Assembly: GCF_008107625.1 (NCBI RefSeq)
Contig: NZ_SDKK01000001.1
Location: 63,686-127,685, forward strand
Reading direction: 5' to 3'
DNA length: 64,000 nucleotides
From: Zoogloea oleivorans
Lineage (GTDB): Bacteria > Pseudomonadota > Gammaproteobacteria > Burkholderiales > Rhodocyclaceae
In this document: positions 8,079-64,000 of the stretch, piece by piece
Layout: each line of letters begins with the position of its first letter
Position numbering within the stretch: position 1 is the first letter of the stretch
Notes under the pieces: model-generated
What the model saw: the letters and a program-made list of their open reading frames with translations, nothing else
What the model was told of the DNA's origin: nothing
Database searches by the model: none
Position numbers and translations under genes: made by a program

Positions 8079-8113
8079 AATGCAAGTCTTTGCCAGGCAA
8101 ACAAAATTTATCA

Positions 8114-8136
8114 GGGTGCCCTCCGGCACCCTTTTT
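8114..8136 (+). terminator. GC hairpin with T-run just before lepA
   Basis: GGGTGCC at 8114-8120 and GGCACCC at 8125-8131 form a perfect 7-bp stem with a CTCC loop, followed by TTTTT (8132-8136). It has the full form of an intrinsic terminator for the mucD-glutaredoxin operon, yet ends one base before the lepA ATG. Either lepA is transcribed past it or it acts as a leader hairpin for lepA. A TAGAAT box at 8076-8081 could serve a lepA promoter upstream of it. Confidence 0.65.
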
Positions 8137-8137
8137 C

Positions 8138-9940
8138 ATGGCCCAAATGCAACACATCAGAAACTTTTCGATTATTGCCCACATCGACCACGGTAAATCT
8201 ACCCTGGCCGACCGGATCATCCAGCTGTGCGGAGGCCTCTCCGCTCGCGAGATGGAATCCCAGGTGCTGGATTCGATGGACATCGAGCGTGAGCGCGGTA
8301 TCACCATCAAGGCCCAGACGGCTGCGCTGAGTTACCGCGCCCGCGATGGCCAGGTCTACAACCTCAATCTGATCGACACTCCGGGGCACGTGGACTTCTC
8401 GTATGAAGTCTCCCGATCGCTGGCGGCCTGCGAAGGCGGCCTGCTGGTCGTCGATGCATCCCAGGGCGTCGAGGCGCAGACCGTAGCCAACTGCTACACG
8501 GCGCTGGAACAGGGCGTCGAGGTGGTGCCGGTCCTCAACAAGATGGATTTGCCCCAGGCCAATCCGGAGGGAGCCCGCCAGGAAATCGAGGACGTGATCG
8601 GCATTGATGCGACCGACGCGATTCCCTGTTCGGCCAAGACCGGCATGGGCGTCGAGGACATCCTTGAAGCGGTCATCGCGCGCATTCCGGCGCCCAAGGG
8701 GGATCCGGATGGCCCGTTGAAGGCGCTGATCATCGACTCCTGGTTCGACAACTACGTTGGCGTGGTGATGCTCGTCCGGGTTGTCGATGGCACGCTCAAG
8801 CCCAAGGACAGGATCATGTTCATGTCCACCGGCGTGCAGCAGTTGTGCGAGCAGGTCGGCGTGTTCACTCCCAAGTCCCAGCAGCGGGAAACCCTGTCGG
8901 CCGGTCAGGTGGGTTTCATCATTGCCGGCATCAAGGAACTCAAGGCGGCCAAGGTGGGTGACACCATCACCCTGGCCAACAAGCCGGCGGTCAAGGCGCT
9001 CGAGGGTTTCAAGGAGATCAAGCCGCAGGTGTTCGCCGGCCTGTATCCGGTGGAATCCAACGAATACGACCAGCTTCGCGAGTCCCTCGAAAAGCTGCGT
9101 CTGAACGATGCCTCGCTGCAGTTTGAGCCGGAAGTATCCCAGGCACTCGGCTTCGGCTTCCGCTGTGGCTTCCTCGGCCTCTTGCACATGGAAATCGTGC
9201 AGGAGCGCCTGGAGCGCGAGTTCGACATGAACCTCATCACCACGGCGCCGACCGTGATCTACGAGGTGCTCATGAAGGACGGGACGGTGGAGCAGATCTC
9301 CAATCCGTCCAAGTTGCCCGACCTGTCGAAGGTGGAGGAGGTGCGCGAGCCGATCATCAAGGCCGTCATCTTCCTGCCGCAGGAATACGTGGGGGCCGTG
9401 ATCACCCTGTGCAACCAGAAGCGTGGTTCGCAGGTGGACATGCTCTATCACGGCCGCCAGGTTCAACTGATCTACGACATGCCCATGAATGAAGTGGTGA
9501 TGGACTTCTTCGACAAGCTGAAGTCCGTGTCGCGGGGCTATGCGTCCCTCGACTACGAGTTCAAGGAATACCGCGCCGCCGATCTGGTGAAGCTCGATGT
9601 GCTGGTGTCCAGCGAGAAGGTCGACGCGCTGTCCATCATCGTGCACCGGGCCAACTCCCAGTATCGTGGTCGTGATCTGGTCGCCAAGCTGCGCGAATTG
9701 ATCCCGCGCCAGATGTTCGATGTGGCGATCCAGGCGGCCATCGGCTCCAATATCGTGGCCCGGGAAACCATCAAGGCCCTGCGCAAGAATGTGTTGGCCA
9801 AGTGTTATGGTGGCGACATTTCGCGGAAGAAGAAGCTCCTCGAGAAGCAGAAAGAGGGCAAGAAGCGCATGAAGCAGGTCGGCAACGTGGAAATTCCGCA
9901 GGAGGCCTTCCTGGCTGTACTGCGGGTGGACGAAAAATGA
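8138..9940 (+). CDS. lepA: Elongation factor 4 (LepA) GTPase
   Basis: A ribosome-associated translational GTPase that acts on stalled or mistranslocated ribosomes. About 600 residues, the family size. The P-loop AHIDHGKST, the DTPGHVDF switch II motif and the NKMD guanine-specificity motif are all present. The C-terminal LepA-specific domain includes [23 protein letters not shown] 8138 or 8147 could start it; neither has a clear Shine-Dalgarno. lepB follows 31 nt downstream, the usual lepA-lepB pair. Confidence 0.97.
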
Positions 9941-9971
9941 CCGGCACCAAACTGATAGTAGGGGCGCTCGC

Positions 9972-10760
9972 GTGAATTTTGCGTTGATTCTTTTTACCTT
10001 GCTGGTTTTCAGTGGCGTCTTGTGGGCGCTGGATCGTTTCGTCGCCAGCAAGCGGCGTGGCGTCGGGGCCAAGTCCCCCTGGTGGGTGGAGTACGGCGCC
10101 AGTTTTTTTCCGGTGATCCTGGTGGTCTTCAGCCTGCGCTCGTTTCTCGTCGAGCCCTTCAAGATTCCGTCGGGCTCGATGATTCCGACCCTGCTGGTGG
10201 GCGACTTCATCTTGGTTAACAAGTGGACCTACGGCATTCGTCTGCCGGTGATCAACAAGAAGATCGTGGCGATCAACGAGCCGCAGCGTGGTGACGTCAT
10301 GGTCTTTCGCTTCCCCGGCGATCCGTCGCTTGACTACATCAAGCGTGTGGTCGGTTTGCCGGGCGACAGGGTCGAGTACCTCGACAAGAAGCTCACCATC
10401 AACGGTGTCGAAATGGCTCAGAAGGCCGATGGCGACTACCTGCATGCTGACCGGCTGTACTTCTCGCCACGTTATTCGGAAAAGCTTGGCGAGATTGAAC
10501 ACAAGATCATCGTTGAGAATGAATCGCCGGCGTTTGTCTCCCAGACTACCCCGTATCCTTTCCGCGATAACTGCACCTATACTAGCCGCGGTGTGTCTTG
10601 CACAGTGCCTGCGGGGCACTATTTCATGATGGGTGACAATCGGGACGGCAGTTTCGACAGCCGGGGCTGGGGTTTTGTCCCGGAAGAGAATATCGTCGGC
10701 AAGGCATTTTTCATCTGGTTCAATTTCAGTGACCTGAAACGGATCGGCAGCTTCCATTGA
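9972..10760 (+). CDS. lepB: Signal peptidase I
   Basis: A membrane-bound Ser-Lys protease that removes signal peptides from exported proteins. The 262 residues include an N-terminal membrane span, a second hydrophobic stretch (SFFPVILVVFSLRSFLV), the catalytic serine in PSGSMIPTL and the catalytic lysine in DYIKRVVGLPGD. The GDNRDGSFDSRGWG box is near the C-terminus. Translation starts at GTG 9972. The stop shares a base with the DUF4845 gene start. Confidence 0.96.
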   Translation: MNFALILFTLLVFSGVLWALDRFVASKRRGVGAKSPWWVEYGASFFPVILVVFSLRSFLVEPFKIPSGSMIPTLLVGDFILVNKWTYGIRLPVINKKIVAINEPQRGDVMVFRFPGDPSLDYIKRVVGLPGDRVEYLDKKLTINGVEMAQKADGDYLHADRLYFSPRYSEKLGEIEHKIIVENESPAFVSQTTPYPFRDNCTYTSRGVSCTVPAGHYFMMGDNRDGSFDSRGWGFVPEENIVGKAFFIWFNFSDLKRIGSFH

Positions 10761-11134
10761 TGATGACAAAAAAGAGTCAGTCGGGTCTTAGCCTTATCGG
10801 GGTGTTGCTGGTCGGGGGCATCCTTGCCGCAGTCCTGCTCGTCGGGCTCAAGCTGATTCCCGTCATCTCAGAGTATTTCGGGATCCGGCGAGCGATTGCC
10901 GCCGTGGCCAGTGGCGCCGACCCCCAGACAGCGACAGTTCCCCAGTTGCGCTTCGCTTTTACAAAGCGGGCTATCGTGGATGACATCAGTTCGATCTCTG
11001 CAACGGATCTCGACATCACCAAGGAAAACGGACAAATCGTGATTTCGGTGGATTATTCCCGCAAGGTGCATCTGGTTTCCAACGTCAGCCTCCTCATCGA
11101 TTTTTCTGTATCGACTGCACCAGGTGGCCGATAA
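10760..11134 (+). CDS. DUF4845 small membrane protein
   Basis: A protein of about 124 residues with a pilin-like N-terminus: a short basic head ([12 protein letters not shown]) followed by one hydrophobic segment ([17 protein letters not shown]) and a small soluble domain ending [16 protein letters not shown]. It matches the DUF4845 family, which is commonly found between lepB and rnc in betaproteobacteria. Its function is unknown; membrane anchoring is inferred from the hydrophobic stretch. ATG 10760 or 10763 could start it. Confidence 0.82.
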
Positions 11135-11144
11135 GCGTTTTCCC

Positions 11145-11813
11145 ATGAAGCTGGATGTTTTGCAGCAGGCGCTTGGGTATCGGTTTGTCCGTCCCGAGTT
11201 GCTGGAGCAGGCCCTGACCCATCGCAGCTTCGGCTCGCCCCACAACGAGCGGCTGGAGTTTCTCGGCGATAGCGTCCTCAATTGCGTGACGGCCATGGCC
11301 CTGTTCGGGCGCTTTGGCGAATTGCGCGAAGGTGATCTGTCCCGTTTGCGTGCCAACCTCGTTCGTCAGGAGGCCCTGCATCGTCTGGCCGATGGACTGA
11401 AGCTGGGCGACTACCTGCGTCTTGGCGAGGGTGAACTGAAGAGCGGCGGGCATCGCCGTCCGTCCATTCTGGCCGATGCGCTGGAGGCGATCTTCGCCGC
11501 TGTCTTCATGGACGCCGGTTTTGAAACCGCCAAGGCGGTCATCGACCGGCTTTACGAATCGTCCATCGCCGAGCTCGATCCGGCCCGCGCCCTGAAAGAT
11601 CCGAAAACCGCCCTGCAGGAATGGGTTCAGGGGCGGCGCATGCCGCTGCCCCGTTACTCCCTCGCCAATACCCGCGGCGAAGCGCACCAGCAGGAATTCG
11701 AGGTCGAGTGTGAAATCACCGGCCTTGGCCTCAAGACCCGCGGCATCGGCGTGAGTCGCCGCGCTGCCGAACAGCAGTCCGCTCAGGCGGCGCTGGAACT
11801 ATTGCCAAAGTAA
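11145..11813 (+). CDS. rnc: Ribonuclease III
   Basis: A double-stranded RNA endonuclease that processes rRNA precursors and some mRNAs. The RNase III signature [11 protein letters not shown] is near residue 40, the second acidic cluster is in [16 protein letters not shown], and a dsRNA-binding domain ([11 protein letters not shown] to the end) completes the protein. ATG 11145 gives the family N-terminus MKLDVLQQ; an in-frame GTG at 11124 would overlap DUF4845. The stop overlaps the era start by 1 nt, the conserved rnc-era coupling. Confidence 0.96.
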
Positions 11814-52702: not shown

Positions 52703-52779
52703 GGCGGCATTAGCTCAGTTGGTAGAGCACTGGATTGTGATTCCAGTGGTCACCGGTTCGAACCCGGTATGTCGCCCCA
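52703..52779 (+). tRNA. tRNA-His (GTG)
   Basis: A cloverleaf including the extra 5' G (G-1 at 52703, opposite C73), ending in an encoded CCA. The anticodon loop ATTGTGATT gives GTG. The second mobile element begins after its 3' end. Confidence 0.96.
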
Positions 52780-52806
52780 AAAATTCAAGCACTTAGCGCA
52801 GATTTA

Positions 52807-52843
52807 CAGTAAGCGCGAAAGTTGCAGTAAGCAGATAGTAAGC
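52807..52843. repeat. Three direct repeats of (C)AGTAAGC next to tRNA-His
   Basis: CAGTAAGC at 52807-52814 and 52825-52832, and TAGTAAGC at 52836-52843. Short direct repeats just inside an element end may be arm-type integrase sites. No gene lies between tRNA-His and 52919. Confidence 0.45.
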
Positions 52844-52848
52844 AACGA

Positions 52849-52873
52849 AGCACGCCGAAAAGCGGGCTTTTTT
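52849..52873 (+). terminator. Terminator after the tRNA Pro-Arg-His operon
   Basis: AGCACGC (52849-52855) pairs with GCGGGCT (52862-52868) with one mismatch, followed by TTTTTT. It is correctly oriented to end tRNA transcription before the minus-strand element genes. Confidence 0.7.
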
Positions 52874-52918
52874 GCGTCTACCTGTCTTGGTGGAGCTTTG
52901 CGGTGTGCGGCCCCAGCA

Positions 52919-53755
52919 TCAGTGTCGTGCTGTTCCGGCCAACCGGCGCCGGTACTGCTCCCAGCTTTCCCCAGGCCGGGCGTGGTTCGCTTCCGGCCGC
53001 TCTGCTGCTGACCATCGTCCCTTTCTGGCTCTGAACTGCGCCGGCGGGGCAGTGCCGTTCTTCAGAATGGTATCGATCAAGCCTGCGTTGATTGGCTGGA
53101 GGCTGCCGGACTTCTGACGAACAGCGCGGGCGGCGGTGATGGCGTCTGCAAGGCGGGCGGGTTGGACCCCAGCAGCAGCCCATTGCACCAACGCTGCAGA
53201 ATATCCCGCGATGGGAACCTCGTGGCGTTCCAAGATATCCACAAGGTCACCAGTCGACAACAACATTCCATGACTCATGATGTGTGCCCCGTTTGTCGAT
53301 TTTTCAGGGGTTGAGAGCGTGCCCGGTTTGGCCTGATTTCCCATGTCTTTAGCGGAATTCACGGCGCCGTGTTCTGTGGGCAAGTCTGTGCCCTCACCGT
53401 GCCCTGTTTGAATTGGACGAGCGGAGGCGGTGAGGGCCATTGGAAGGCGGAAAGACAGCCGGTCACCAGCCAGGCGGCGAAGCAACCCGGCTCTGACAAG
53501 CCGATCAATCGCTCCCCGGATAGTCTTTTCGCTCTCCTGTTCGATCTGGAGGCCGGCGCCCCGCGGCGTATGGGTCTCGGTGTAGCTGCGAAGCATGGAC
53601 AGAGACACCGGCCGCGTTCGGCCGACAACGCCACTCGGGTAATCCATCCAGGCCCTCAGAAGAACATAGGTCTGAAAGGCCAGCGGGCCGGATCCATGAA
53701 GAACATCAATCTCGCTGATCGTCAGAGCCACAAGTTGGACAGGGGTAGCGCTCAT
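52919..53755 (-). CDS. Element protein with winged-helix-like N-terminal half, unknown
   Basis: A 278-residue protein. The N-terminal part (ISEIDVLHGSGPLAFQTYVLL, then SEKTIRGAIDRLVRAGLLRRLAGDRLSF) reads like a winged-helix DNA-binding domain of replication or regulatory proteins. The middle is low-complexity. The C-terminal half (ALVQWAAAGVQPARLADAITAARAVRQ) is helical and ends with a basic tail ESWEQYRRRLAG. It overlaps the next upstream gene by 4 nt. A replication-related role is only a guess. Confidence 0.6.
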   Translation of the reverse strand: MSATPVQLVALTISEIDVLHGSGPLAFQTYVLLRAWMDYPSGVVGRTRPVSLSMLRSYTETHTPRGAGLQIEQESEKTIRGAIDRLVRAGLLRRLAGDRLSFRLPMALTASARPIQTGHGEGTDLPTEHGAVNSAKDMGNQAKPGTLSTPEKSTNGAHIMSHGMLLSTGDLVDILERHEVPIAGYSAALVQWAAAGVQPARLADAITAARAVRQKSGSLQPINAGLIDTILKNGTAPPAQFRARKGRWSAAERPEANHARPGESWEQYRRRLAGTARH

Positions 53756-54078
53756 GACGTGAACCTCGTAGAGGCATTTCTCAGAGCAGACCTCAGTGCA
53801 TCGATAGCCTGCCGGCAGTCGGCAACGTGTGCATCCTTGTCAGTGGCCAGAGTCCCAGCCGTGAGGAAACCTGAACTAATCAATTTGTATATCATGGCGC
53901 CGGCTGTGAACAACTCGGGTGCCGCGCTAATCAAGGCTTCGTTGGCATCCGCCTGGTCAATGCCGGAACCGCCGGATAAGACCTCGCAGATTGTCACCGT
54001 ATTGCCGCTGGTGCCGGCGGCAATGGCTCTGTGCCTGACACGACGCCACGGGCCAGGCGTGAAGTTCGGGGGGAGCAT
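53752..54078 (-). CDS. Small unknown element protein
   Basis: A 108-residue protein starting MLPPNFTPGPWRRVRHRAI. The TPGPW opening and an ANEALISAAPELF segment are typical of small phage early proteins of unknown role. No catalytic motif is visible. It overlaps its downstream neighbour by 4 nt and shares one base with its upstream neighbour. Confidence 0.6.
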   Translation of the reverse strand: MLPPNFTPGPWRRVRHRAIAAGTSGNTVTICEVLSGGSGIDQADANEALISAAPELFTAGAMIYKLISSGFLTAGTLATDKDAHVADCRQAIDALRSALRNASTRFTS

Positions 54079-54377
54079 TATTTCCCCTCCCTTAGTTTCG
54101 CAGCAGAGATCTTGGCGAGCTGGCAGACTTCATTGGATATGGATCCGCACGCCCACATGAAGCGGTCCTGCAGCTCGTCATTCATGCCGCGGAAGGCTTC
54201 ACCTTGTTCGCCGATGGTCATGTTTATCAGTGCGTCCAGCTGGGCCAGTCGAGCCCTTATCTGGTCCTGAATGATGCCGGTAGTGGCGCCGGGCGCGAGA
54301 ACGTACAGGTCACCGGATGCATCGGGGAAGGTCATCACCGTAGTGGGCTCACCGGCTTTCATGATCTTCGCGCTCAT
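54078..54377 (-). CDS. Small unknown element protein
   Basis: A 99-residue protein, MSAKIMKAGEPTTVMTFPD at the start, then a helical half containing IQDQIRARLAQLDALINMTIGE in outline. No known domain. It is tightly coupled to both neighbours (1-nt and 4-nt overlaps), so it is very likely translated. Confidence 0.6.
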   Translation of the reverse strand: MSAKIMKAGEPTTVMTFPDASGDLYVLAPGATTGIIQDQIRARLAQLDALINMTIGEQGEAFRGMNDELQDRFMWACGSISNEVCQLAKISAAKLREGK

Positions 54378-54868
54378 GCTGAAATCCTGCCACCCATTAC
54401 ACTTTCAAGGCGGCGGGCTTCTTCCTGCCCTTCTATGGCGAGGCGTATAGCTTCGGCTTTGCGGCCGGCTCCACTCTCAATTGCCCTGAACAACTCCAGC
54501 AGTTTGGCGAATCCGTCTTGTGCCTCTTTAAGGCCAGCACGGCATTCGTCAAGCTCAGCAGTCTGCAATTTCTCTATGTTGTGGGAGTGCTCAGTTTTGA
54601 GCACCTCCTCTCCTGTATGGGCCGCAGCTTTCCTGAGATCAGCCAGTTCGCGGACGAAAACGGGTTCGGTGCTATCCGGTGCATCAAATAGCCCATCGAA
54701 AATGTCCCTAAGATCAACCGACAGCGTTACGCAAGCATCGATGAAATCAGCAAGGGTGGCGTCATCCATACTGCCACTGGATAAGGATAGTGCTGAAAGC
54801 ATTGCGGACTGATGTGCAAGGCGGTCCGCAAAATGCTCCTGCCCCATGGTTTGCTGAATGCGGCTCAT
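54374..54868 (-). CDS. Helical unknown element protein
   Basis: A 164-residue, mainly helical protein from MSRIQQTMGQEHFADRLAHQ. Charged heptad-like stretches (EKLQTAELDECRAGLKEAQD) suggest a coiled coil. ATG 54868 is chosen since it overlaps the preceding stop by 4 nt; the frame is open to 55012. Its coding region contains the 17-nt hairpin repeat at 54588-54604, also found at 55332. Confidence 0.55.
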   Translation of the reverse strand: MSRIQQTMGQEHFADRLAHQSAMLSALSLSSGSMDDATLADFIDACVTLSVDLRDIFDGLFDAPDSTEPVFVRELADLRKAAAHTGEEVLKTEHSHNIEKLQTAELDECRAGLKEAQDGFAKLLELFRAIESGAGRKAEAIRLAIEGQEEARRLESVMGGRISA

Positions 54869-55005
54869 TTTCCGGCCCTCCAGGCGAAGGACAGGCGATA
54901 GGCGAGCACGGGGCCGGCGATGGTGCGAAGGACGCGGTAAAGCGTCAGGGTGCTGAAGGGCGAGGCGGAGATTTGGGCGGACGTGCCCAATGTTGTGGCT
55001 TGCAT
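54865..55005 (-). CDS. Very small unknown element protein
   Basis: About 46 residues, MQATTLGTSAQISASPFSTL onward, ending in a basic RLSFAWRAGK. AAGGAG lies 8 nt before the ATG and the stop overlaps the next gene by 4 nt, which supports translation despite its size. No domain is recognised. Confidence 0.45.
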   Translation of the reverse strand: MQATTLGTSAQISASPFSTLTLYRVLRTIAGPVLAYRLSFAWRAGK

Positions 55006-55356
55006 GGTGCATGCTCCTTGAGTGCGGTCAGTTTCTCCGCGCCCCGCTTCCAAACGGGGCGGCGGAACCGTACGGGGTTGGAAGACCGGCCTCAAGAAAC
55101 CGGCAGCCCGAAGGCTCCCCGCACGGCCCCGCCATTGAACAGGTGGCACCATGCTACCGACGTAAAAAAACCGCTTGCGCGGCCTTGTCGGCCTTGAGGT
55201 TTCGGGCTTCCAAACCCGTTCGCTGTTGTTTCAGCGACGCCCAGAGTATTCAGCCAGACGCATGCTGCTGTCAAGCATCTACTAGAAAATTATTCGGGCG
55301 GCCTCCACGAGCCGCTCTTCATCAGTTCGACTGCTCAGTTTTGAGCACTCCTACCT
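55006..55356. other. Non-coding stretch with direct repeats
   Basis: About 350 nt without a convincing gene, separating two minus-strand gene blocks. It holds a 33-nt direct repeat unit at 55296-55328 that recurs with two mismatches at 55366-55398 (the 3' end of the HEAGH gene), and between them a hairpin GCTCAGTTTTGAGC (within 55332-55348). It may contain the promoter of the downstream small-gene block and a terminator of the upstream one. Confidence 0.5.
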
Positions 55357-55884
55357 CTACGAACAGGGCGGCTTCCAGGAGCCGCTCTTCATCAGTTCAC
55401 CGGCAATCTGCACTACCCGGCCCCAGTTCTGCGTCAGCACCGACAACGCCACGCGTTGCGCGTAGCCGTGTCCGGCTGAGCTGCCGCCGAAGATCGGAAA
55501 GAGCATGTCGTGTGCAAGCTGCCAGTCAGAGTCATTGCGCTTGGTTACGCCCTGCCAGGGTGCGCCGGCATAGATCAGCTCTGCACAAATGCCCGCGTGG
55601 GCGAGTGCGGCGGCTCCGGCATGGTGGGCCTCGTTTGGGGAAACGATACCTACGGCTGTGGCACGTTCGGACGGCCTATCGAATAGCGTAGCGCCTTCCC
55701 CTTTGGCGGCCACAGCCTGCTTCACATCGAAGCCCACCCACTCCAGCAGAACAACATGACCGGCCTCGTGGTACGCCGTGAGGGCAAGGCTTGAGGTCTT
55801 GATTTCTTCCGGGACGAGAGCGAACGGCCACACGCGGCGGACTTCATCGTCCCGGGGAAATGGATATTCAATCTGTCGCATCAT
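55357..55884 (-). CDS. FtsH peptidase-M41-like HEAGH protein
   Basis: A 175-residue protein containing LALTAYHEAGHVVLLEWVG, the zinc-metalloprotease HExxH motif in the same context as FtsH (TAYHEAGHA), followed by AHHAGAAALAHAGICAELIYAG and NDSDWQLAHDM, which could provide the third zinc ligand Asp as in M41. It has no AAA domain or membrane span. In phage context it might process structural proteins; this is inference. The start overlaps the tape-measure stop (ATGA). Confidence 0.72.
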   Translation of the reverse strand: MMRQIEYPFPRDDEVRRVWPFALVPEEIKTSSLALTAYHEAGHVVLLEWVGFDVKQAVAAKGEGATLFDRPSERATAVGIVSPNEAHHAGAAALAHAGICAELIYAGAPWQGVTKRNDSDWQLAHDMLFPIFGGSSAGHGYAQRVALSVLTQNWGRVVQIAGELMKSGSWKPPCS

Positions 55885-58628
55885 GATCTAGCCGCCAGTT
55901 CCTGCAGCGTAGAAACAAGCGCCGCGGCATCTGCTTGACTCGCAACTTTTACCGACGACGTACCGCGGTTTGTCGTCAGGTCCACCCTGACGATATTCAT
56001 GTAGGAAGACTGAACACCTTTTCCGGTGAGGCGATCCGCAAGAGCTTGAACCGCTGCATCAAGCGACAGGCCATAGGTGTTCTGGGTGTTTCCGGCGCCA
56101 TCGAAGAACTGGCTAGCTTGCTGGGCAGCCAGCGCATCACTGACACCCAGGTTCTTCAACCTGGTGGCGACGGTCTGCGGGGTCACCCTCGCCACCTCGA
56201 GCACGTTGCCGCTGGCATCCCGCGTGAAGCCATCCTTGGCCGCAGCCGCACCGCGTATCGAGGTAGTCAATCCGTCGTAGCTGGTAGCTGCACGATCGGC
56301 AGCCGAAGCCGCATCGTCGGTTGAAGACGAGAGATCAAAGAAGCTCGATTTCAGCTCTTTGGTTTCGTAGGACAGCGCCTTCATCCGGGCGGCGATCAGA
56401 TCGTATTTATCCGCCTCCAGTTGCTTGGCCTTGATGTTGACATCCATAACGGCCAACTCGGCCTTCTTCGCTTCGGTCAGGGCGCCAGACGCTTCCAGCT
56501 CGGCCCGTTTGGCCTTGGCGACAATCAGCATGGCTTCAGCCTCGAGGCGTGACGCCTGCGCCGACGCTTCACTGATTTCCAGCTCGATCCGCCAGACAGC
56601 AATCTGAGCCTGTGCAATCTCCTTTTCGTTGCCGCGCTGCTTGGCGATCTCCAGGATGGTGTTGGCCCGGTAGAGGTCGTTTTGCAAGGCGGATTGTTGA
56701 AGGGTGGCAGCAGCCCGTTCAGCCGTTACATGGCGCTCAGCGGCGGCCGTTGCGTCGGAAAGGGCATCGCGGTAAAGCAGCAAGGCCTTTTGAGCGGCCT
56801 CCTTTGAGGCAGTCAGTTCCTTGTCGGTTGCCACTCCTTTTACGAAAGCCTCGCCCGTCTTCTCGAAGGCTGCATTCGCGGCTACATAGGCGTCTCGCAG
56901 CGCGTAGACCTGCTTGGAATGATCCTTGTATGTTTCGGCTGCAGCCTGAGCCTCCAAGGTGGCCGAGTGCGATGCCGCCGCTTCCTGAGTCGCCTTGTCG
57001 GCAAGAGCCTTCTTCGCGTCGACCTCCTTGCCCAGGTCTTCAATTTTCTGCTTGCGAGCAGTGGATTCAGCCCCCATTCCCGCAACTTCAGCCTTCTGAG
57101 CTGCGAGGTATTCCGCGAGGCCAGCAATCTCCTCCTGCAGTGCTCGTCGGCCATCTCCTCTGACGCTTGCTTCCTGCTCCAGGGCGGCAATCCGTGATTG
57201 CGTCATGGCAATCTGCTCTTGCGCCTGCTTCCTTCCTGCTTCCGCCGCGATTTTCTCCGCGGCCAGTTCCGTCTCTTTTAGGGCAACAGCAAAGCGGGTC
57301 TGTTCCGCTATGCGCTGCAGAGCAGCTTCTTCAGCTTGGGCTGCATCCACTGCCGTGCGGCGCTGCTGGGCCTCAGTGTCGTAAAGCTGACTGGCCCGCA
57401 TCATTGCATCAGCCTCTGACTGGCGGGCGGCAGCAACTTTCTCGAGGTTTATGATCTGCTTTCCCGCTTCATCATTCGCTTTTGTGAAAGCGCTCTGAAG
57501 CTGAAGGACGTCATTGCTCTGCGTCCGGATTACGGTCCCCATCTGTGCGGCGGCGGTACCAACATCGCCCAGCGACTTCGATAGCAATGCGCTGCTTCGT
57601 GCCGTCGCTTCCAGCGATTGGCGGGCCTTCTCCGCGTCCCATTGGGGGCCGCCAAAGAGCTCTCGCGTTTTGCTTATGCCAGCCTCAAAACCGACTGTCA
57701 GCGCCTTGGCGCCAAAGGTTGTGAGGGCCAACCCCTCGTTTAGAACCTTCATGACACCGGAGTCACCGATAACTGTGAAGAATTCCGTGGCGCTGTTTTT
57801 CATCCTTGCCCACTGGGCGGCGAAAGTGTCGTTGTTGGCCTTTCCTACGCCATACATTTCGGTCAGACCCCTGGCGAGGGCGGGCAGCAGGTCTTCGGCC
57901 AGGACAGAGCCGGACTCGACCATTTTTGTAAGCTCGGCGACGGTCAGCCCTGCGCCCGCTGCTGCGGCTTTCATTGCGCCTGGCAAGGCTTCACCAAGCT
58001 GGCCCCGCAGCTCCTCCATAGATACCTTGCCTTTAGACGCCATCTGATTGACGGCCAGCAGCGCCGTCGAGGTTTCGGCGCTTGTTTTCCCGAGGGTTGC
58101 CATTGCTCCAGCAACGGCCTCAAACACCTGCCGGGCGGCGGCGCCTTCAAGGGCCGTACCCTTTGTGCTGGCAAGCAACTGCATGTAGGCCTTGCCGGCA
58201 TCGAGAACATCCACGCCGAGGCGCTGAGCCGCCCCGCGAATGTATTCCAGTTCAGCGGCTGCCCGTTCGGTGCTGCCTGTCAGGATCGACATGGTGCGAG
58301 TCAGGCTCTCGACCTGACTGTTTGCATCAATAAAGGCTCTCCCTGCCTGCAGAGCGGCGGCGGCCTTGGCCAACTGGACTGCCATGTCCTGAACCTGCCC
58401 GCTCATGTTTTTGGTGGACTTGGCAGCCTTGTCGGCTGTGGCGTTGTACTGCTCGGCATCCGCGGACATTTTGCGAAGCCGATCGGAAAGCACGCCCAAG
58501 GCTGGTGCAGCCTCGCCGCCCTGTTTGGCCAAGCTGTCAATATGCTTTGCAAGTTGTTCGACGGCTGCGCCGCCGGTTGTGTCGGCGGCGATGCGCAACC
58601 GTACTTCGTCATCGCTCAGGAGAGCCAT
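55881..58628 (-). CDS. Phage tail tape-measure protein
   Basis: A 915-residue protein, very Ala/Lys/Glu-rich and largely coiled coil. The N-terminal tape-measure domain is clear: SLTRTMSILTGSTERAAAEL, VDVLDAGKAYMQLLASTKGT and GKVSMEELRGQLGEALPGAM. Tape-measure proteins set tail length and take part in DNA entry. No clear transmembrane segments are seen in the middle, where many relatives have them. No tail tube, sheath or baseplate gene flanks it in this window. Confidence 0.9.
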   Translation of the reverse strand: MALLSDDEVRLRIAADTTGGAAVEQLAKHIDSLAKQGGEAAPALGVLSDRLRKMSADAEQYNATADKAAKSTKNMSGQVQDMAVQLAKAAAALQAGRAFIDANSQVESLTRTMSILTGSTERAAAELEYIRGAAQRLGVDVLDAGKAYMQLLASTKGTALEGAAARQVFEAVAGAMATLGKTSAETSTALLAVNQMASKGKVSMEELRGQLGEALPGAMKAAAAGAGLTVAELTKMVESGSVLAEDLLPALARGLTEMYGVGKANNDTFAAQWARMKNSATEFFTVIGDSGVMKVLNEGLALTTFGAKALTVGFEAGISKTRELFGGPQWDAEKARQSLEATARSSALLSKSLGDVGTAAAQMGTVIRTQSNDVLQLQSAFTKANDEAGKQIINLEKVAAARQSEADAMMRASQLYDTEAQQRRTAVDAAQAEEAALQRIAEQTRFAVALKETELAAEKIAAEAGRKQAQEQIAMTQSRIAALEQEASVRGDGRRALQEEIAGLAEYLAAQKAEVAGMGAESTARKQKIEDLGKEVDAKKALADKATQEAAASHSATLEAQAAAETYKDHSKQVYALRDAYVAANAAFEKTGEAFVKGVATDKELTASKEAAQKALLLYRDALSDATAAAERHVTAERAAATLQQSALQNDLYRANTILEIAKQRGNEKEIAQAQIAVWRIELEISEASAQASRLEAEAMLIVAKAKRAELEASGALTEAKKAELAVMDVNIKAKQLEADKYDLIAARMKALSYETKELKSSFFDLSSSTDDAASAADRAATSYDGLTTSIRGAAAAKDGFTRDASGNVLEVARVTPQTVATRLKNLGVSDALAAQQASQFFDGAGNTQNTYGLSLDAAVQALADRLTGKGVQSSYMNIVRVDLTTNRGTSSVKVASQADAAALVSTLQELAARS

Positions 58629-58860
58629 TTGCGTAGTCCTTCAGAATTTTTGTGGCGGGGCCGGGAGAGATGGCGAGGAGCTTGCTGGCGAAGGAATCCG
58701 CCAAGTCGTGCTTGAGAGAGCGAATGGCAAGACCGAACATTTTCCGGAGAGGGTGGGCAGAGGCATACAGCTCAATGCCCAGAACATCCAGATAGGCGGC
58801 AATTGCAGCACGCACCTCTGGGTCTACGGCCGGATCGTCGCCGGCAGGGGATTGCGTCAT
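58609..58860 (-). CDS. Small unknown protein upstream of the tape measure
   Basis: An 83-residue protein, MTQSPAGDDPAVDPEVRAAI at the start, overlapping the tape-measure start by 20 nt. In tailed phages the slot before the tape measure usually holds tail assembly chaperones, often with a frameshift; here only one short frame exists and no frameshift signal is recognised. Function unknown. The 118 nt upstream (58861-58978) hold no gene. Confidence 0.55.
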   Translation of the reverse strand: MTQSPAGDDPAVDPEVRAAIAAYLDVLGIELYASAHPLRKMFGLAIRSLKHDLADSFASKLLAISPGPATKILKDYANGSPER

Positions 58861-58978
58861 CGGATGTTCCTTGGTGTATGGGGGCGCACCTCGCAGCCCG
58901 TAGGCGTCCCTGGTGCGCTTGTGCAGGCCGTCAGCCGCCGGCCGGCACGGGTGGGGCTGAAGCCCCTTTCCGGAGAAA

Positions 58979-60109
58979 TCAAGACCCTGCGTTGGTCACC
59001 GAGCCGCGGTGATCAACTGCAGATACACCGAAGTCGTAGCGGACCTTGAAGCGGGTGCCATCTACCGAAAAACCTTCCACCTGCTCGAGAAATGGTTGCT
59101 CGTTGCCACCAAGGAAATCTACTTCGAGGACGGGGGCTTCCACTGGATCGGCGAAGCTATAGCGGCGTGTGCCAAAGAGGCGCGGGGAATCTACGATGTC
59201 GCGGTAGAGGCCGCGGATGGAGTTGGGGCGGCGATCCCCGGGATTCTTCGTATCCAGTTCGTTGAATTCTGCACCGTTGACCTCAATGGCCCTGGCGCGC
59301 AGCCATACAGGTGCAAGCAGAATGGACGGCTGGAGAACAAGAGAGCTACCGCCACCAGGCTCTTTCTGATCCGCCATCAGTTGTCGGTCGGCATCGACGG
59401 AACCCTGTGACAGTGCAGCGGGGGCACCAATGTTGTTGTGGAGGGCATGAAACAGCGTGTAGCCATCGTCCATGACCGGGCCAAGGCCAGAGTTCAGGAG
59501 CAGAAGAGCGTAAACATCCGTTTCGACGGTACGCGCAGCGGAGCGGCCAAGCTGGTACGACGGGTCCATGAAGGAGCCGAGATCGTCGTCAATGATTGCT
59601 TGACGAGAGAGGTTGATGATCAGCCCCTTGGTACCTATACGGACGCGGGCTCTTTCGCCGTCGGGAATCAGGGCGTTACGGAACTCGCCAAGCTCATTGA
59701 GCGGCTGCAGGTTCTGCAGTGCGGCAAGTCGGTAGCGCGGGTGGTCGCGGAAGTCGGAGACGGAGCCGACAGCGCAGAAGCGGCGCCAGGTGACGGCGGC
59801 AGTGGCGTAGGCCATCTGCAGCGTCTTGTGCATCGCGTTTTCCAGCAAAATCGGGAAGTCGCTGGTGCTCTGCGTAAAGGCAGCGCCGACAATCTCCATA
59901 TTGTCGCGATTACGGTAGTCAACGCCACCACGTACCAAGGAAGCCTTGGCGATATTGAGTAGTGAATCGCCACGGTAAGGGTTGCCGTCAATCTTGGCCT
60001 TGTCCTCATTCGAGGCCACGCCGGCACGCACCATCAAGGCAGCAATGATTGCACCGCGGCGCTTGTCGGCTTCGTCTTCGACGGTTTGAATTTTATTTGT
60101 GGAAGTCAT
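58979..60109 (-). CDS. Major capsid protein (Mu-type, HK97 fold)
   Basis: A protein of about 376 residues starting MTSTNKIQTVEDEADKRRG. It matches the pattern of Mu-like major head subunits: FTQSTSDFPILLENAMHKTL, RFCAVGSVSDFRDHPRYRL, RARVRIGTKGLIINLSRQAI in outline, LLLNSGLGPVMDDGYTLFH, and a VDHRG motif near the C-terminus. In many relatives this part is fused to a ClpP-type protease; here the capsid region stands alone. ATG 60109 is chosen; the frame is open to 60226 but overlaps the upstream gene. Confidence 0.85.
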   Translation of the reverse strand: MTSTNKIQTVEDEADKRRGAIIAALMVRAGVASNEDKAKIDGNPYRGDSLLNIAKASLVRGGVDYRNRDNMEIVGAAFTQSTSDFPILLENAMHKTLQMAYATAAVTWRRFCAVGSVSDFRDHPRYRLAALQNLQPLNELGEFRNALIPDGERARVRIGTKGLIINLSRQAIIDDDLGSFMDPSYQLGRSAARTVETDVYALLLLNSGLGPVMDDGYTLFHALHNNIGAPAALSQGSVDADRQLMADQKEPGGGSSLVLQPSILLAPVWLRARAIEVNGAEFNELDTKNPGDRRPNSIRGLYRDIVDSPRLFGTRRYSFADPVEAPVLEVDFLGGNEQPFLEQVEGFSVDGTRFKVRYDFGVSAVDHRGSVTNAGS

Positions 60110-60120
60110 ATTCCGGCCTT

Positions 60121-60711
60121 TTAGGAAAGAAGGGTTTTCTTGCCCGCGGCGACTGCAGCGGGGGCCTCGTCGCCCGTTATTACGGGGAAACAATCCGCAA
60201 CCATGTCCCTCCAATTTACCCAGCATAGAGTCATATCGCTATTGGCGATCAGTCCATAAATTTCGATAAGGCTGGCACGCACTTTCTTGTCATCGGCAAT
60301 GCGAGCCTTGATCGGTTCGATCAGCTCTTCCACTCGTGATCGAAGGGCTGCGTTATGGGCATGAGTCGCTGCGTATATCTCTTGGTCAATCTGAGGTTGA
60401 ATGTCTCGGGCGGCGGCAATGACCTGCCTCACCTCCTCTAAACGCTTTCGGGCGGCCTCTATCCCATCCCGGGCCGTCATTACGTCAATTTCGCCGACAA
60501 GGCCGCGGACATAAGAGGCTTGCACCTCCTGGGCGCGCTTGGTGGCATCGACAATTTCGGTTTGGATGGCCTTAATCCCAAGCTCTGATTTTTCGACAAC
60601 AGCTTGAACGTGGGCGCGTTGCGCCTCGAGCTCCTTAAGGGCTTTGAGTGTTTTCATGGCGTGGCTTTCTGACGAGGGGGAGAGGGAGAGAAAACGGGAA
60701 ACGGGGTTCAT
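60121..60711 (-). CDS. Coiled-coil protein before the capsid gene
   Basis: A 196-residue protein with a long helical/coiled-coil core (KALKELEAQRAHVQAVVEKS through AARKRLEEVRQVIAAARD). It lies 11 nt upstream of the capsid gene and overlaps the HTH gene before it by 4 nt. Position and coiled-coil nature would fit a head scaffold or assembly factor, but no family is recognised. MKTLKALK at 60657 is another possible start. Confidence 0.6.
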   Translation of the reverse strand: MNPVSRFLSLSPSSESHAMKTLKALKELEAQRAHVQAVVEKSELGIKAIQTEIVDATKRAQEVQASYVRGLVGEIDVMTARDGIEAARKRLEEVRQVIAAARDIQPQIDQEIYAATHAHNAALRSRVEELIEPIKARIADDKKVRASLIEIYGLIANSDMTLCWVNWRDMVADCFPVITGDEAPAAVAAGKKTLLS

Positions 60712-60902
60712 GCTTGCGCCGCCTTGGCAGCAGTGACGGGCCAGCGCAGGCGACCGTTGGGCAGCTTGATCGGCACGGCGCCGAAGTAACTACCCTTCGT
60801 GTAAAGGGCATTGCGGACGGTTCCAGGCTGGACGCCATGCCGCTGGGCGAATGTCTCGGTGCTCTCCGTGGAGGGAGAAACGGCGGCGGCCTCTTTGTGC
60901 AT
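60708..60902 (-). CDS. Small HTH DNA-binding protein
   Basis: A 64-residue protein. The core TFAQRHGVQPGTVRNALYTKG reads as a helix-turn-helix, followed by a short wing LPNGRLRWPVT. AGGAG lies 7 nt upstream of the ATG. Similar small proteins in prophages and islands act as transcription or excision regulators (AlpA/Xis type). It heads the block that includes the coiled-coil and capsid genes. Confidence 0.65.
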   Translation of the reverse strand: MHKEAAAVSPSTESTETFAQRHGVQPGTVRNALYTKGSYFGAVPIKLPNGRLRWPVTAAKAAQA

Positions 60903-60998
60903 TGCATTGCTCCTAAAAAGTGCTGAATTAGGCTCAATGGTGCTTTGTGTGCTGTCTCATTTTCAGGGGGTGGCGTGAGACAGGTTCAGGTCTAGGAA

Positions 60999-61436
60999 CT
61001 ACAGCCGTGGCCGCTTCCAGTCTTTTCCGAAGAGGCCGAGACGAGGGGAGGAGCGGATTTTCGACAGGGAATTGGGGGTCAGGCGCTCCTCGCCGGCAGA
61101 GGCGTTATCGGCCACTACCGGCGCAGCGGCGGCAGCGACAAAGCCAGGACCGATAATCCGGTAGAACGTCGCCCGGCTGACGTCCCAGCGCTGCTGCAGG
61201 CGTTTCCGGCTGGCCCTGGTTCCGTCGTAGTCGCGGCGGATGGACTCATCCCGCTCGAGGATTTCCGCCGGGTCATGCTTGGCAACATAGATCGTTGCGC
61301 TTTGGTGGTGATGGCGAACCTTGCCGACAACCTTCACTGCCAGTGCACGGGCGATGCGTTCGTCTATCCCGCCTTCAGATCGGATGGCTTCAGTAAGAAC
61401 CCAAAGCAAGGACAAGCGCTCTTCATTTTTCTGCAT
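60999..61436 (-). CDS. Mor-like transcription activator
   Basis: A 145-residue protein. The central region (IYVAKHDPAEILERDESIRR, DYDGTRASRKRLQQRWDVSRATFYRII in parts) follows the Mor/C pattern of Mu-like phage middle and late gene activators: a short beta strand with I-Y-x-x-K, then a helical region and a C-terminal HTH. An N-terminal helix (LLWVLTEAIRSEGGID) matches the Mor dimerisation part. It probably switches on the capsid/tape-measure block. Confidence 0.72.
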   Translation of the reverse strand: MQKNEERLSLLWVLTEAIRSEGGIDERIARALAVKVVGKVRHHHQSATIYVAKHDPAEILERDESIRRDYDGTRASRKRLQQRWDVSRATFYRIIGPGFVAAAAAPVVADNASAGEERLTPNSLSKIRSSPRLGLFGKDWKRPRL

Positions 61437-61531
61437 GACTCACACCTTTTGAAAACTCGATCAAGTGAGAAAAGCCGGGGGGTGGATGCTGGCCGCCAGC
61501 TTGCGCGGCAAGGGTTGAAGCGGAACGGATG

Positions 61532-61644
61532 TGTTCCCAGTGTTCCCAGTCAACTTTTAACTACTGGGAACACTCAGTACCCTCTTGAAGCCGCATAAAC
61601 ACTAGGTTTTCTCAATCTGTTCCCAGTGTTCCCACTGTTCCCAG
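61532..61644. repeat. Iteron-like 9-bp repeats, cluster 1
   Basis: TGTTCCCAG at 61532 and 61541 (tandem), its complement CTGGGAACA at 61564, then TGTTCCCAG, TGTTCCCAC, TGTTCCCAG in tandem at 61618, 61627 and 61636. The region 61437-61650 is otherwise non-coding. Confidence 0.8.
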
Positions 61645-61650
61645 TGGTTC

Positions 61651-62202
61651 CTATGCTTCCGGGCCTTGGCTTTTGGTAATGCGGCGGAAAACGGGGTCGG
61701 TAATTTCCCCCCGGCGGAACTCCACGCCGGCATCGTGCAAGGCGTCGGCAACCACCTGGCGGATATCCCAGGACGGCCGCGGCCAATCCGTCCCATGGAC
61801 CAATACGCGGAACTGGCGCAGGACAGATGCCGACGGCGGTCGCGGCTCCCAGGGGTCGGACCCAATGAAGCGACTCATCGCGTGACTGTCGAGAAGTTCG
61901 GCCTCAGTCTGGCGATCGGACATCGCCCACAAGAGCTGGAGCACGTAGCACTTCAGCAACATGCGGAGCGAGTAGCCCTTCCGGCCGGTTTTGCGGATAT
62001 CCGACTGGTACAGAGGCCGGGTGATCTCCTCAAGCTTCCCCCATGGGATTGCCGCCTCCACGAAGGCGAGCATGTCGGCCCGTTTTGGGGTTTTAGCGCG
62101 CGGCCACCTCATGGAGGTGAAAAGGGCTGTCTGCGTTGAATCGGTGTTGCAGGGGCGTTGCATGATTTGTCGTCCTCTGTTGCCTATGTTTTTGGAGCTC
62201 AC
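61651..62202 (-). CDS. Orphan IS5-type transposase N-terminal domain protein
   Basis: A 183-residue protein holding the DUF772 N-terminal domain of IS5/InsH transposases: IPWGKLEEITRPLYQSDI, RKGYSLRMLLKCYVLQLLWAMSD in outline, and FIGSDPWEPRPPSASVLRQFR. The DDE catalytic domain is absent. The rest is a 40-residue tail ending ITKSQGPEA. Terminal repeats are not visible. It may be a remnant or a reused DNA-binding protein. The first 13 residues before MQRPCNTDS may be untranslated. Confidence 0.75.
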   Translation of the reverse strand: MSSKNIGNRGRQIMQRPCNTDSTQTALFTSMRWPRAKTPKRADMLAFVEAAIPWGKLEEITRPLYQSDIRKTGRKGYSLRMLLKCYVLQLLWAMSDRQTEAELLDSHAMSRFIGSDPWEPRPPSASVLRQFRVLVHGTDWPRPSWDIRQVVADALHDAGVEFRRGEITDPVFRRITKSQGPEA

Positions 62203-62258
62203 CCTGGCGGAGTCTCACGGCTCTCCGTACCCGAGTGGGTTTTGGCTGGGGAGTACCT

Positions 62259-62717
62259 TCAGGACATGGCCGGATGCAACACCCAGGTGTTGCAGGTCGC
62301 ACCCTTGTCGGCGGGAAGTCGGCGGAGTGGGTGGCTTGGTCCGTAGGCTGGTGCGAGGTCGAGCCGGTCGCCGCCGCAGTGCCCATCCGACAGGCCGGGC
62401 CTGTAGATGTGGGCACAGGTTCTGCAGGATGAATTTTCCCGTTTGACCATCGGCGCAGCTTCATCTAAACCACCACCACCCGGCATCAAGCTATGCGCTT
62501 GTCTTTGGGTTTGTGATGTGTCCTCATACCTTGCCCCTTCAAAACCGCTGGGAACAGCGGGAACTCTGGGAGCAGAGCTTAAAAACTCTTTGTCTTCAAT
62601 GTCTTGGGTGTTCCCAGTGTCTTCCGAAGCACTGGGAACACTGGGGCTTGGCTCTGGGAACAGATCCGCAGGCCCTAACACCTTGTCGACAAGCGAAGCC
62701 CACTCATTCGGCGGCAT
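62259..62717 (-). CDS. Element protein with Cys motif, unknown
   Basis: A 152-residue protein. The N-terminal half is Pro/Ser-rich and low-complexity, partly encoded by the 9-bp repeats. The C-terminal half contains CRTCAHIYRPGLSDGHC and a further Cys in KGATCNTW, a pattern able to bind a metal. It overlaps the DUF927 gene by 14 nt and is probably coupled to it. Confidence 0.6.
   Translation of the reverse strand: MPPNEWASLVDKVLGPADLFPEPSPSVPSASEDTGNTQDIEDKEFLSSAPRVPAVPSGFEGARYEDTSQTQRQAHSLMPGGGGLDEAAPMVKRENSSCRTCAHIYRPGLSDGHCGGDRLDLAPAYGPSHPLRRLPADKGATCNTWVLHPAMS
62548..62662. repeat. Iteron-like 9-bp repeats, cluster 2
   Basis: CTGGGAACA at 62548 with degenerate tandem copies GCGGGAACT and CTGGGAGCA (62557-62574), TGTTCCCAG at 62609, and CTGGGAACA at 62632 and 62654. 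These lie inside the Cys-motif gene, which appears to have absorbed them in its low-complexity half. Confidence 0.75.
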
Positions 62718-64000
62718 CGACAGCTCCCAAGATTGCCGGGGTTAGCGCGAAGAACCAGCCCGGCGAGGCTGCGCCGGGCTCGCGGAACTTCACCTGAAAG
62801 CGGGTGTTCTTTCCGTCGTGTGTGGTTTTCAGTAGGCCGCGCTTGACCAGTTCCGCTGCAACCTGTTTTGGGTCAAAGCCGAAGCACAGCTCACTGCGAA
62901 ATGAAGCCGGATAGATCAGGTATTCAAAGATCTGATCTGCTTCGTTCAGCGATGCGGTCTCACCCGTTGGCCGCTTCCAGCCGGCCCGGTTCATGGTGCG
63001 TGGGGCGTGGGTGTCGGTGATACTGGGGCGCCGCCAATCCTCAAGGCGTGTGCCGCCATTAGCCTGAATCCATGCCTGAACTTGTTCCACCATCTTGCGA
63101 GGCTCCCGGTTCTCTTCGCCCCCGAAGGCCTGCAGCCAGTCCTTGAACATACGCATTGCGGACTTGACGGCTTCGCCCGCTGGCCATCCGGTGATCCCGT
63201 ACTCCGTCGCCTTCTCTCCGGCATAAGCCACGGCAGCAAAGCGCGTTGCGGCCCGGATTGCCTGCCCGCCGGCCTTGTCAGTCAGGGCGCGGCCCTCGAA
63301 TGCGCGGCGCAGTTCCTCGAACTGGCTGGGCATTGCGGCCCGCTCCAGGATCACGCGTCGGATGAACTCCGGGTACGCCGTGCCGTAGTGCTTGCCGGCA
63401 TTGCATTGCAGGGTTTCGGAGAAGCGGGCGCCGTCGGCCAGGCCGTGCAGCGCATCCCAGCAGCCGAAGCCGGCGCCGGCATCGGCGGGCAGCTCGCAGA
63501 AGCGCACCTCCTGTCCGGCGTAGGCGCGCTCCTGGTTCTCTTCAAGGAACTGGGTCAGGCCAATTTCTCCGTTCGATTGGAACAGGACCACCGTGAGAGA
63601 AATTTCCTGTACCCCGCCAGTAGGCCGCCCGCGGCCCTTGCCTTGACCACTGGTGAGCATATAGGCCGCCTGTGCCACGTCCTTCGGGTTGCCGGCCTGC
63701 TTGAGTTCGTCGAGCAGCAAGGGGGCATCGCAGTGCCCGGCCGCCACGCCTTCAATAGCTGTGGCGGTCAGCAGCCAGGTGCGGCGGTAGGTTGCGGGTC
63801 CGCACAGGCTGGCTGCCCCGTAAAGCAAAGCGGACTTGCCCAGGCTCGAGCCGCCCGCCCAGTGGAAGCCGCCGGGAATATTGGGGTGGAGCCAGCATAG
63901 TCCGCCGGCGAAGCCCGCAGAGAGAGCAAACACTAGCCGGCTATTGCCCACCGCCAAGGCGGCGACATTGGCCCGCCAATCCTCCAAGGTGCCGGCAGTC
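62704..64000 (-). CDS. DUF927 helicase/primase-type ATPase (5' end outside the window)
   Basis: At least 431 residues; the frame is open to the window edge and the apparent start (TTG 63987) falls inside the conserved TLEDWRANVAALAVGNSRLVF region in outline, so the gene is truncated by the window. Walker A is AGGSSLGKSALLYGA and Walker B is APLLLDELKQAG. DUF927 proteins occur in mobile elements and prophages, often fused to primase domains, and support element replication. A C-terminal winged-helix-like part (KQVAAELVKRGLLKTTHDGKN) is visible. Confidence 0.85.
   Translation of the reverse strand, partial: TAGTLEDWRANVAALAVGNSRLVFALSAGFAGGLCWLHPNIPGGFHWAGGSSLGKSALLYGAASLCGPATYRRTWLLTATAIEGVAAGHCDAPLLLDELKQAGNPKDVAQAAYMLTSGQGKGRGRPTGGVQEISLTVVLFQSNGEIGLTQFLEENQERAYAGQEVRFCELPADAGAGFGCWDALHGLADGARFSETLQCNAGKHYGTAYPEFIRRVILERAAMPSQFEELRRAFEGRALTDKAGGQAIRAATRFAAVAYAGEKATEYGITGWPAGEAVKSAMRMFKDWLQAFGGEENREPRKMVEQVQAWIQANGGTRLEDWRRPSITDTHAPRTMNRAGWKRPTGETASLNEADQIFEYLIYPASFRSELCFGFDPKQVAAELVKRGLLKTTHDGKNTRFQVKFREPGAASPGWFFALTPAILGAVDAAE

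Follow-up and report, generated by a model that had tools for sequence, protein, structure and literature searches.

The 64,000-nt window of Zoogloea oleivorans DNA analysed here (C14:63686-127685 of its own assembly) ends within an integrated element that seems to carry only two major virion parts, a protease-less shell protein and a tail-length ruler. Reading from the genes alone, we consider it likely that this element is an intact, integrated, helper-dependent satellite whose own capsid subunit and tape measure are swapped into helper virions. That it is a satellite is strongly indicated; the mechanism is argued from analogy and gene context, and its purpose is probably to reshape helper heads and tails for the element's own spread. 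A sequence-only reading of the region had proposed either a satellite or a compact prophage whose other genes lay past the window's edge. The satellite survives closer study and the compact prophage does not, since the element ends 5.8 kb beyond the window and the scans recognised no portal, terminase or tail tube in that part.

To place the ends of the element, the flanking sequence was analysed on to C14:135000 (window position = L005 + 51814, L005 being the locus that holds the element). An exact 49-nt direct repeat bounds it. The left attachment (att) copy (52732..52780, plus strand, direct repeat D1) includes the 3' end of a tRNA-His gene called by ARAGORN (52704..52779, plus strand), which is the attachment site. 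The right copy falls beyond the window's end, at C14:133418-133466 (L005 17919-17967) and adjoins the gene for a tyrosine integrase with an arm-binding domain. From att to att the element measures 17,050 bp, or about 16 kb without an IS30-type insertion, and the window edge interrupts it, with 5.8 kb remaining past base 64000. To look for empty sites, the two flanks were joined (200 + 200 nt) and compared with 22 other genomes of the genus. In nine of these (G674, G261, G672, G133, G669, G668, G036, G164 and G248) the flanks were contiguous, aligning unbroken to 37-57 nt beyond the junction; in the remaining 13 the query aligned on one side only or stopped near the junction. Bounded integration with an integrase of its own, as expected of a satellite, was thus seen in the att repeats, the integrase and the contiguous flanks of relatives, and the integrase, AlpA-like regulator and primase-helicase together form a P4-like set. 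Beyond position 64000 lie the remainder of the DUF927 gene, genes for a 143-aa protein and an AlpA-like protein, an ORF beside the IS30 copy whose start is possibly lost, and the tyrosine integrase gene. The IS30-type insertion (about 1.07 kb, L005 15380-16448, with 29-nt imperfect inverted ends) sits between the integrase and AlpA-like genes. The same tRNA-His site is occupied in G664 (L103-L104, G664:C46:76000-110500) by a different element, some 33.5 kb long, whose integrase is 91% identical and which has replication genes of the L056 type (L056 is introduced below) and no capsid or tape-measure match.

The families recognised in the element were the integrase, an AlpA-like helix-turn-helix (HTH) protein, a Toprim-DUF927 primase-helicase, Mor, capsid, tape measure, and IS5 and IS30 transposases. 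Element proteins were scanned with Pfam and PHROGs, the IS30 transposase and the adjacent 97-aa ORF with Pfam only. These matches (Mor E 2e-8) bore out the gene order given by the sequence-only reading, from the DUF927 gene through capsid and tape measure to small unknowns. The scans gave no family match to a portal, terminase, head protease, tail tube or sheath among the element's genes, so that the lack of portal, terminase and tail tube reported for the window also applies past position 64,000, up to the end of the element. Nor did sid, psu or delta turn up in these general scans, no dedicated search for them being made. The coiled-coil protein described below gave a weak PHROG 'baseplate hub' match (E 0.008), which we take as a chance match between coiled coils. 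Seven bounded elements were further compared with 25 proteins for head, packaging and tail, taken from phages S1 and PBb001 and from contig L039, plus two protease-only pieces. The 27 queries found the capsid half in the four capsid-bearing elements, one weak tape-measure match in the G275 element, and nothing else; the protease-only pieces matched none of the seven. As a control, the same queries were run against six phage loci whose capsids are related (L043+L044, L092, L046, L047, L052 and L053), where they detected the protease in all six (in L043 via its own sequence), the portal in four and the terminase in three. L052 and L053, in which neither portal nor terminase was detected, start just before the capsid gene, and L047 starts at the portal. 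Tube queries detected only one control locus (L046), so that for the tail tube the negative result depends chiefly on the profile scans, and contig L039, having another head, matched few S1 or PBb001 queries. Both the gene scans and the controlled queries indicate an incomplete set of virion genes. A capsid-forming phage-inducible chromosomal island (cf-PICI) would, like the element, have a capsid gene of its own, and the accessible part of PMC12987554 credits some cf-PICIs with a putative tape measure. But cf-PICIs encode a protease, portal, connectors and both terminase subunits, according to the accessible part of PMC10690885, and none of these was recognised between the att repeats; a compact autonomous prophage would likewise bring terminase, portal and tail genes. 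We find either identity barely credible.

The genes and the dyad described from here on lie on the minus strand. The major capsid gene (58979..60226), which lacks a fused ClpP-type protease, matched Pfam Phage_capsid_4 at E 4e-45 and PHROG 4523, 'major head and protease', at E 1.2e-94, the latter over the C-terminal half only. Its own start is probably the ATG at 60109 (376 aa) rather than 60226. Capsid matches at E <= 1e-10 were found in 27 of 296 genomes of the bacterial family. In phage homologues the capsid domain is fused behind a protease in frames of 565-862 aa, which several records annotate as Clp-type. The nearest phage sequence is L046; among the best 20 of 109 records, Stenotrophomonas phage S1 and Bordetella phage PBb001 are among the nearest named phages, 49% identical in the capsid domain, and they differ from the element in having the protease fused to the capsid and in possessing terminase and portal. 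Close, short, protease-less frames were found in the element's own genome (G000), G190, G094 and G120 and on contig L056 (metagenome-assembled genome SZAS-76), and more distant short frames in G277, G027, G140 and G037. A single origin of the protease-less capsid was not rejected (approximately unbiased test, p-AU 0.174), yet it is absent from the best tree. That tree holds 20 of 42 aligned rows, with L037 and duplicate loci outside the 42; the 22 rows dropped were the contig-end L014, L048 and L054, the distant stand-alone L035, L045 and one of L038, twelve distant fused frames, and the near-copies L050, L051, L053 and L055. In L038 (G140:C59) two capsid genes are consecutive, one fused to an N-terminus of protease length and one short. 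L045 (G277), of which positions 7300-11244 stand out in the part that was read, combines a distant capsid gene with those for a protein judged by eye to resemble a coiled coil, a homologue of the HEAGH protein described below and a tail-completion-like protein; this is possibly a separate satellite lineage.

The coiled-coil gene (60121..60711) lies directly upstream of the protease-less capsid gene, here and in the four close relatives found, L056 included. Its profile matched four of the 296 family genomes (G000, G094, G190 and G120), exactly those with the close protease-less capsid. In the structural model its two long predicted helices, of 57 and 67 residues, form a helical hairpin (mean predicted local distance difference test score, pLDDT, 80; predicted template-modelling score, pTM, 0.51). 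The protein is a candidate scaffold or size determinant, and the predicted fold would suit a scaffold.

The sequence-only reading had placed capsid and tape measure as near neighbours on intact, overlapping frames. Indeed only one 83-codon gene, p83 (58609..58860), separates them, compared with nine annotated genes in S1 and seven in PBb001. The reading frames did prove intact, and several overlaps of 1-20 nt were seen, p83 overlapping the tape-measure start by 20 nt; the overlap between capsid and coiled coil disappears if the capsid starts at 60109. The tape measure (55881..58628, 915 aa) matched Pfam TMP_3 at E 1.3e-30. Its residues 73-841 share 68% identity with residues 307-1067 of an 1170-aa ruler on a 52.9-kb virus contig (L039), while roughly its first 50 residues and its C-terminus are shared instead with the L040 and G275 elements. 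By sequence, therefore, satellite-type ends appear to have been kept around a core like that of a phage ruler. The protein is 255 aa shorter than the L039 tape measure; tail shortening is not claimed, because tape measures of related elements span 705 to 1144 aa. As a simple story, origin from a single phage by deletion was rejected: L039 gave no capsid match (22 of its 53 kb covered), and the tape measures of S1 and PBb001 found no match in the element. L040 and the G275 element likewise have a p83 homologue ahead of the tape measure, and p83 is possibly a tail chaperone. The next gene encodes the HEAGH protein (55357..55884), an FtsH (M41)-like zinc peptidase without an AAA domain. Its best eight PDB profile matches were all FtsH (E 3e-4 to 9e-3), the homologue in L084 matched Pfam M41 below the cut-off, and the best of five fold models reached pLDDT 85, the others being lower. 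In L040 a homologue comes after the tape measure, in L041 after the capsid and in L084 after the coiled coil, and one lies near the distant capsid of L045. Our guess is that HEAGH processes virion or regulatory proteins. Near-identical, palindrome-like 20-nt copies of the GAGTGCTCAGTTTTGAGCAC type occur at 54585-54604 and 55329-55348, and 33-nt repeats at 55296-55328 and 55366-55398.

Upstream of the coiled-coil gene lie those for a Mor-family transcription activator (60999..61436, Pfam Mor 2.1e-8) and HTH64, a small protein (60708..60902) with only a weak repressor-like match (E 0.08). Between them, 16 nt past the Mor stop and 50 nt ahead of HTH64, is a 30-bp dyad of the form TGTCTCA-N16-TGAGACA (60953..60982, TGTCTCACGCCACCCCCTGAAAATGAGACA) with perfect 7-bp inverted arms, a candidate operator of the morphogenesis operon. 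The dyad is identical upstream of the operon in L005, L040, L041 and L056, all four of the bounded capsid satellites, and HTH64 is conserved between dyad and coiled coil. L041 has a second copy with three changes directly before Mor, giving five sites in four elements. Allowing up to three mismatches, a search of the 296 family genomes gave four sites in three genomes, all within these elements, and the reversed dyad, used as a control, gave none. The dyad was not found in L084, G275, L007 or L042, nor in three phage loci, and the exact 25-base core, sought as a route to the helper, had no match in viral_contigs. Mor is 66-67% identical in L040, L041 and L056; Mor and dyad occur together in the four capsid satellites, and neither was found in L007, L042, L084 or G275. 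Because of this co-occurrence, and of the dyad's position and symmetry, we infer that Mor binds the dyad.

The sequence-only reading had suggested a search for the same gene order in other genomes, and L040 proved to have it. L040 and two further att-bounded elements, L041 and L056, 15.6-16.8 kb long and at different sites, share the Mor-HTH64-coil-capsid core. L040 (tRNA-Pro, 15.6 kb) reads Mor-HTH64-coil-capsid-p83-tape measure-HEAGH, with a different primase. L041 (tmRNA, 16.8 kb, att repeat merely 15 nt) reads DUF927-cys152-Mor-HTH64-coil-capsid-HEAGH, and L056 (tRNA-Thr, 16.8 kb) carries a replication initiator, DnaB, Mor-HTH64-coil-capsid and a tail-completion protein. The tape measure is thus present in two of the four capsid satellites. 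Three other bounded elements lack a capsid match. The G275 element (20.7 kb, 64-nt repeats, tRNA-Arg) has DUF927, cys152, p83 and a 1144-aa tape measure. L084, in a genome of another family of the class (G537), is 15.7 kb long with 20-nt repeats and a less sure boundary, and has an integrase, primase, coil, HEAGH and a 705-aa tape measure. A sister element on the bacterium's own contig C63 (L007 5674-18800, 13.1 kb, tRNA-Arg), with neither capsid nor tape measure, carries DUF927 (primase 79-82% identical), cys152, p108 and p99, plus a DUF3987 helicase; near one of its ends, pieces of its primase and att region recur. In L042 (G120), where coil, capsid and DUF927 are present, no convincing att repeat was found; L087 (G133) begins at a contig end and has no boundary. 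As judged from these comparisons, the four capsid satellites share a core, and structural genes appear to be swapped as modules. The family lies mainly within one bacterial family of Pseudomonadota.

Decay by frameshift, which the sequence-only reading had thought relatives might reveal, was not seen in them. Open frames are kept, and Nei-Gojobori dN/dS across element genes and relatives is about 0.12-0.25 overall: 0.16 (L005-L056) and 0.12 (L040-L041) for the capsid; 0.25 and 0.12 for the coiled coil, overlaps trimmed off; 0.15 for HEAGH; 0.21 twice for DUF927; and for the tape measure 0.24 (L005-L040, dS saturated) and 0.19 (G275-L087). These ratios point to genes that are maintained by purifying selection and not decaying. 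A decayed prophage that lost most of its virion genes by chance could account for the IS5 fragment and the IS30 copy, and for the relatives of the primase, cys152, Mor and capsid in a G222 prophage. It would not lead us to expect the purifying selection, the recurrence of the same gene selection in similarly sized bounded elements, the identity of the 30-bp dyad in four of these, or a capsid and tape measure that resemble different phages, and we judge it very improbable.

Satellites in general are reported to carry defence cargo, and so do three of these relatives: L084 holds a full-length Gabija pair (GajA and GajB, L084 14725-18487) inside the satellite-like element, the G275 element holds IetA, and L041 a TIR protein that belongs to a candidate defence family. 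For four element proteins Padloc returned no match. The element could then be a satellite or defence island whose capsid and tape measure are not for particles of its own, acting instead as dominant-negative decoys that poison helper assembly and protect the host. Such interference by one subunit would need no further virion genes, and some relatives own just one of the two structural genes. However, elements of this kind, att-bounded and equipped with integrase and primase, occupy four different sites, which suggests transfer, and the satellite homologues of capsid and tape measure described in the accessible parts of PMC8569155 and PMC12987554 enter satellite particles. We regard decoys as decidedly unlikely.

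For the helper-dependent satellite that we favour, the following course is proposed. Growth of a helper phage would lead to satellite excision, and the satellite would replicate by its own primase. Mor, acting at the 30-bp dyad, would turn on the morphogenesis operon. The protease-less capsid protein would join or replace helper capsid subunits, and the coiled coil, as scaffold or size determinant, would give heads fitting a 16-kb genome, with protease, portal and terminase provided by the helper. The satellite tape measure would displace the helper's, yielding chimeric tails with tube and tip proteins from the helper. A variant overlaps this scheme: the coiled coil would not be a scaffold, and the tape measure would be kept not for tail length but since helper rulers are targeted by competitors or host defence. 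L084, with coil and tape measure and no capsid match, speaks for it, as does PLE11, a Vibrio cholerae satellite whose own tape measure escapes its own inhibitor Rta (PMC12987554, accessible part). The position of the coil, directly before the capsid in this element and its four close protease-less relatives, speaks against it, and we find the variant rather doubtful.

Several observations weigh against the favoured reading. No helper was identified; the bacterium's own genome has no second capsid or tape-measure copy and no GpA_ATPase or Phage_portal match, these being the only terminase and portal families tried. The nearest phages differ for the capsid (L046; S1 and PBb001 among those named) and the tape measure (L039). 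Where one phage does have the two domains, some 6 kb from each other (G182 and G081), identity is only about 30%; given such cases, a phage with both is possible. The two structural genes do not always travel together: no tape measure was matched in L041 and L056, which have the capsid, and no capsid in G275 and L084, which have the tape measure. The coiled coil is present without a capsid match in L084, and the family looks rare, the coil being found in three of 369 genomes of the class, the element's own included; of the other two, G537 holds a real element (L084) and G658 no other element gene, its match probably being due to chance. L042 has coil and capsid without Mor or dyad, and in the G222 prophage a Mor relative (35% identical) occurs without the dyad. 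Finally, the IS30 copy occupies the early region of this element.

The other genes of the element inside the window are as follows. The Toprim-DUF927 primase-helicase (1027 aa) has its C-terminal part at 62704..64000 and runs on to L005 13973. Beside it, the gene for the Cys-motif protein cys152 (62259..62717) has matches in L007, L041, G275, L087 and the G222 prophage. A truncated IS5-type transposase (DUF772; 61651..62202) is probably passenger debris, given that no match was found in the relatives searched. Beyond HEAGH, toward the tRNA gene, lie p212 (54374..55012), without assignment and with a weak, partial match in L007; p99 (54078..54377), without assignment and with homologues in L007 and L041; p108 (53752..54078; PHROG 1273, function not known), with a homologue in the sister element on C63; and p278 (52919..53755; PHROG 13103, function not known), with a homologue in L041.

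Known systems were compared as they are described in the accessible parts of the published accounts. Like this element, the PLE satellites of Vibrio cholerae (PLE11, PLE1 and PLE4) encode a tape measure and are expected to take other tail parts from a helper. The tape measure of PLE11 goes into chimeric tails, and its deletion lowers transduction by about 99.9%; it leads to shorter tails, and the particles hold helper capsid proteins (PMC12987554). PLE11 has TAC and BhuB; in the present element no hub protein was identified, and it encodes a capsid protein of its own, together with a coiled coil and Mor. SaPIbov5 encodes a capsid homologue, Ccm, which forms the pentamers of small heads, makes no capsids alone, and undergoes cleavage attributed to the helper protease (PMC8569155). 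The element differs in that its capsid is accompanied by both a coiled coil and a tape measure, and in belonging to Pseudomonadota. The cf-PICIs resemble it in having their own capsid gene, some with a putative tape measure, and are set apart by the protease, portal, connectors and terminase noted above. P4-like satellites and AH14b share its tyrosine integrase, AlpA-like regulator and primase; P4 (11.6 kb) and AH14b (16.8 kb) are described in the accessible part of PMC4936722 without structural genes, in contrast to the capsid and tape measure here.

Substitution of the tape measure by a satellite was reported as new in 2026 for PLEs (PMC12987554), and that of a capsid homologue has been shown for SaPIbov5 (PMC8569155), as far as the accessible parts of these reports go. 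Each substitution is thus known separately. In the literature searched, no description was found of a capsid subunit together with a tape measure in a satellite without packaging genes, and within that scope the combination appears to be new. More broadly, and somewhat short of an even chance, this may be a modular satellite family that mixes single virion parts (capsid and coil, tape measure and p83, tail-completion protein, FtsH-like peptidase), with the capsid-bearing core under a Mor-dyad switch, its fullest members rebuilding helper head and tail without packaging genes. The identical dyad offers a handle on operon switching and could be used to find more members. An element with both parts, together with relatives having either alone, would make it possible to test for which virion parts a parasite can rely on its helper and which ones it has to encode itself.

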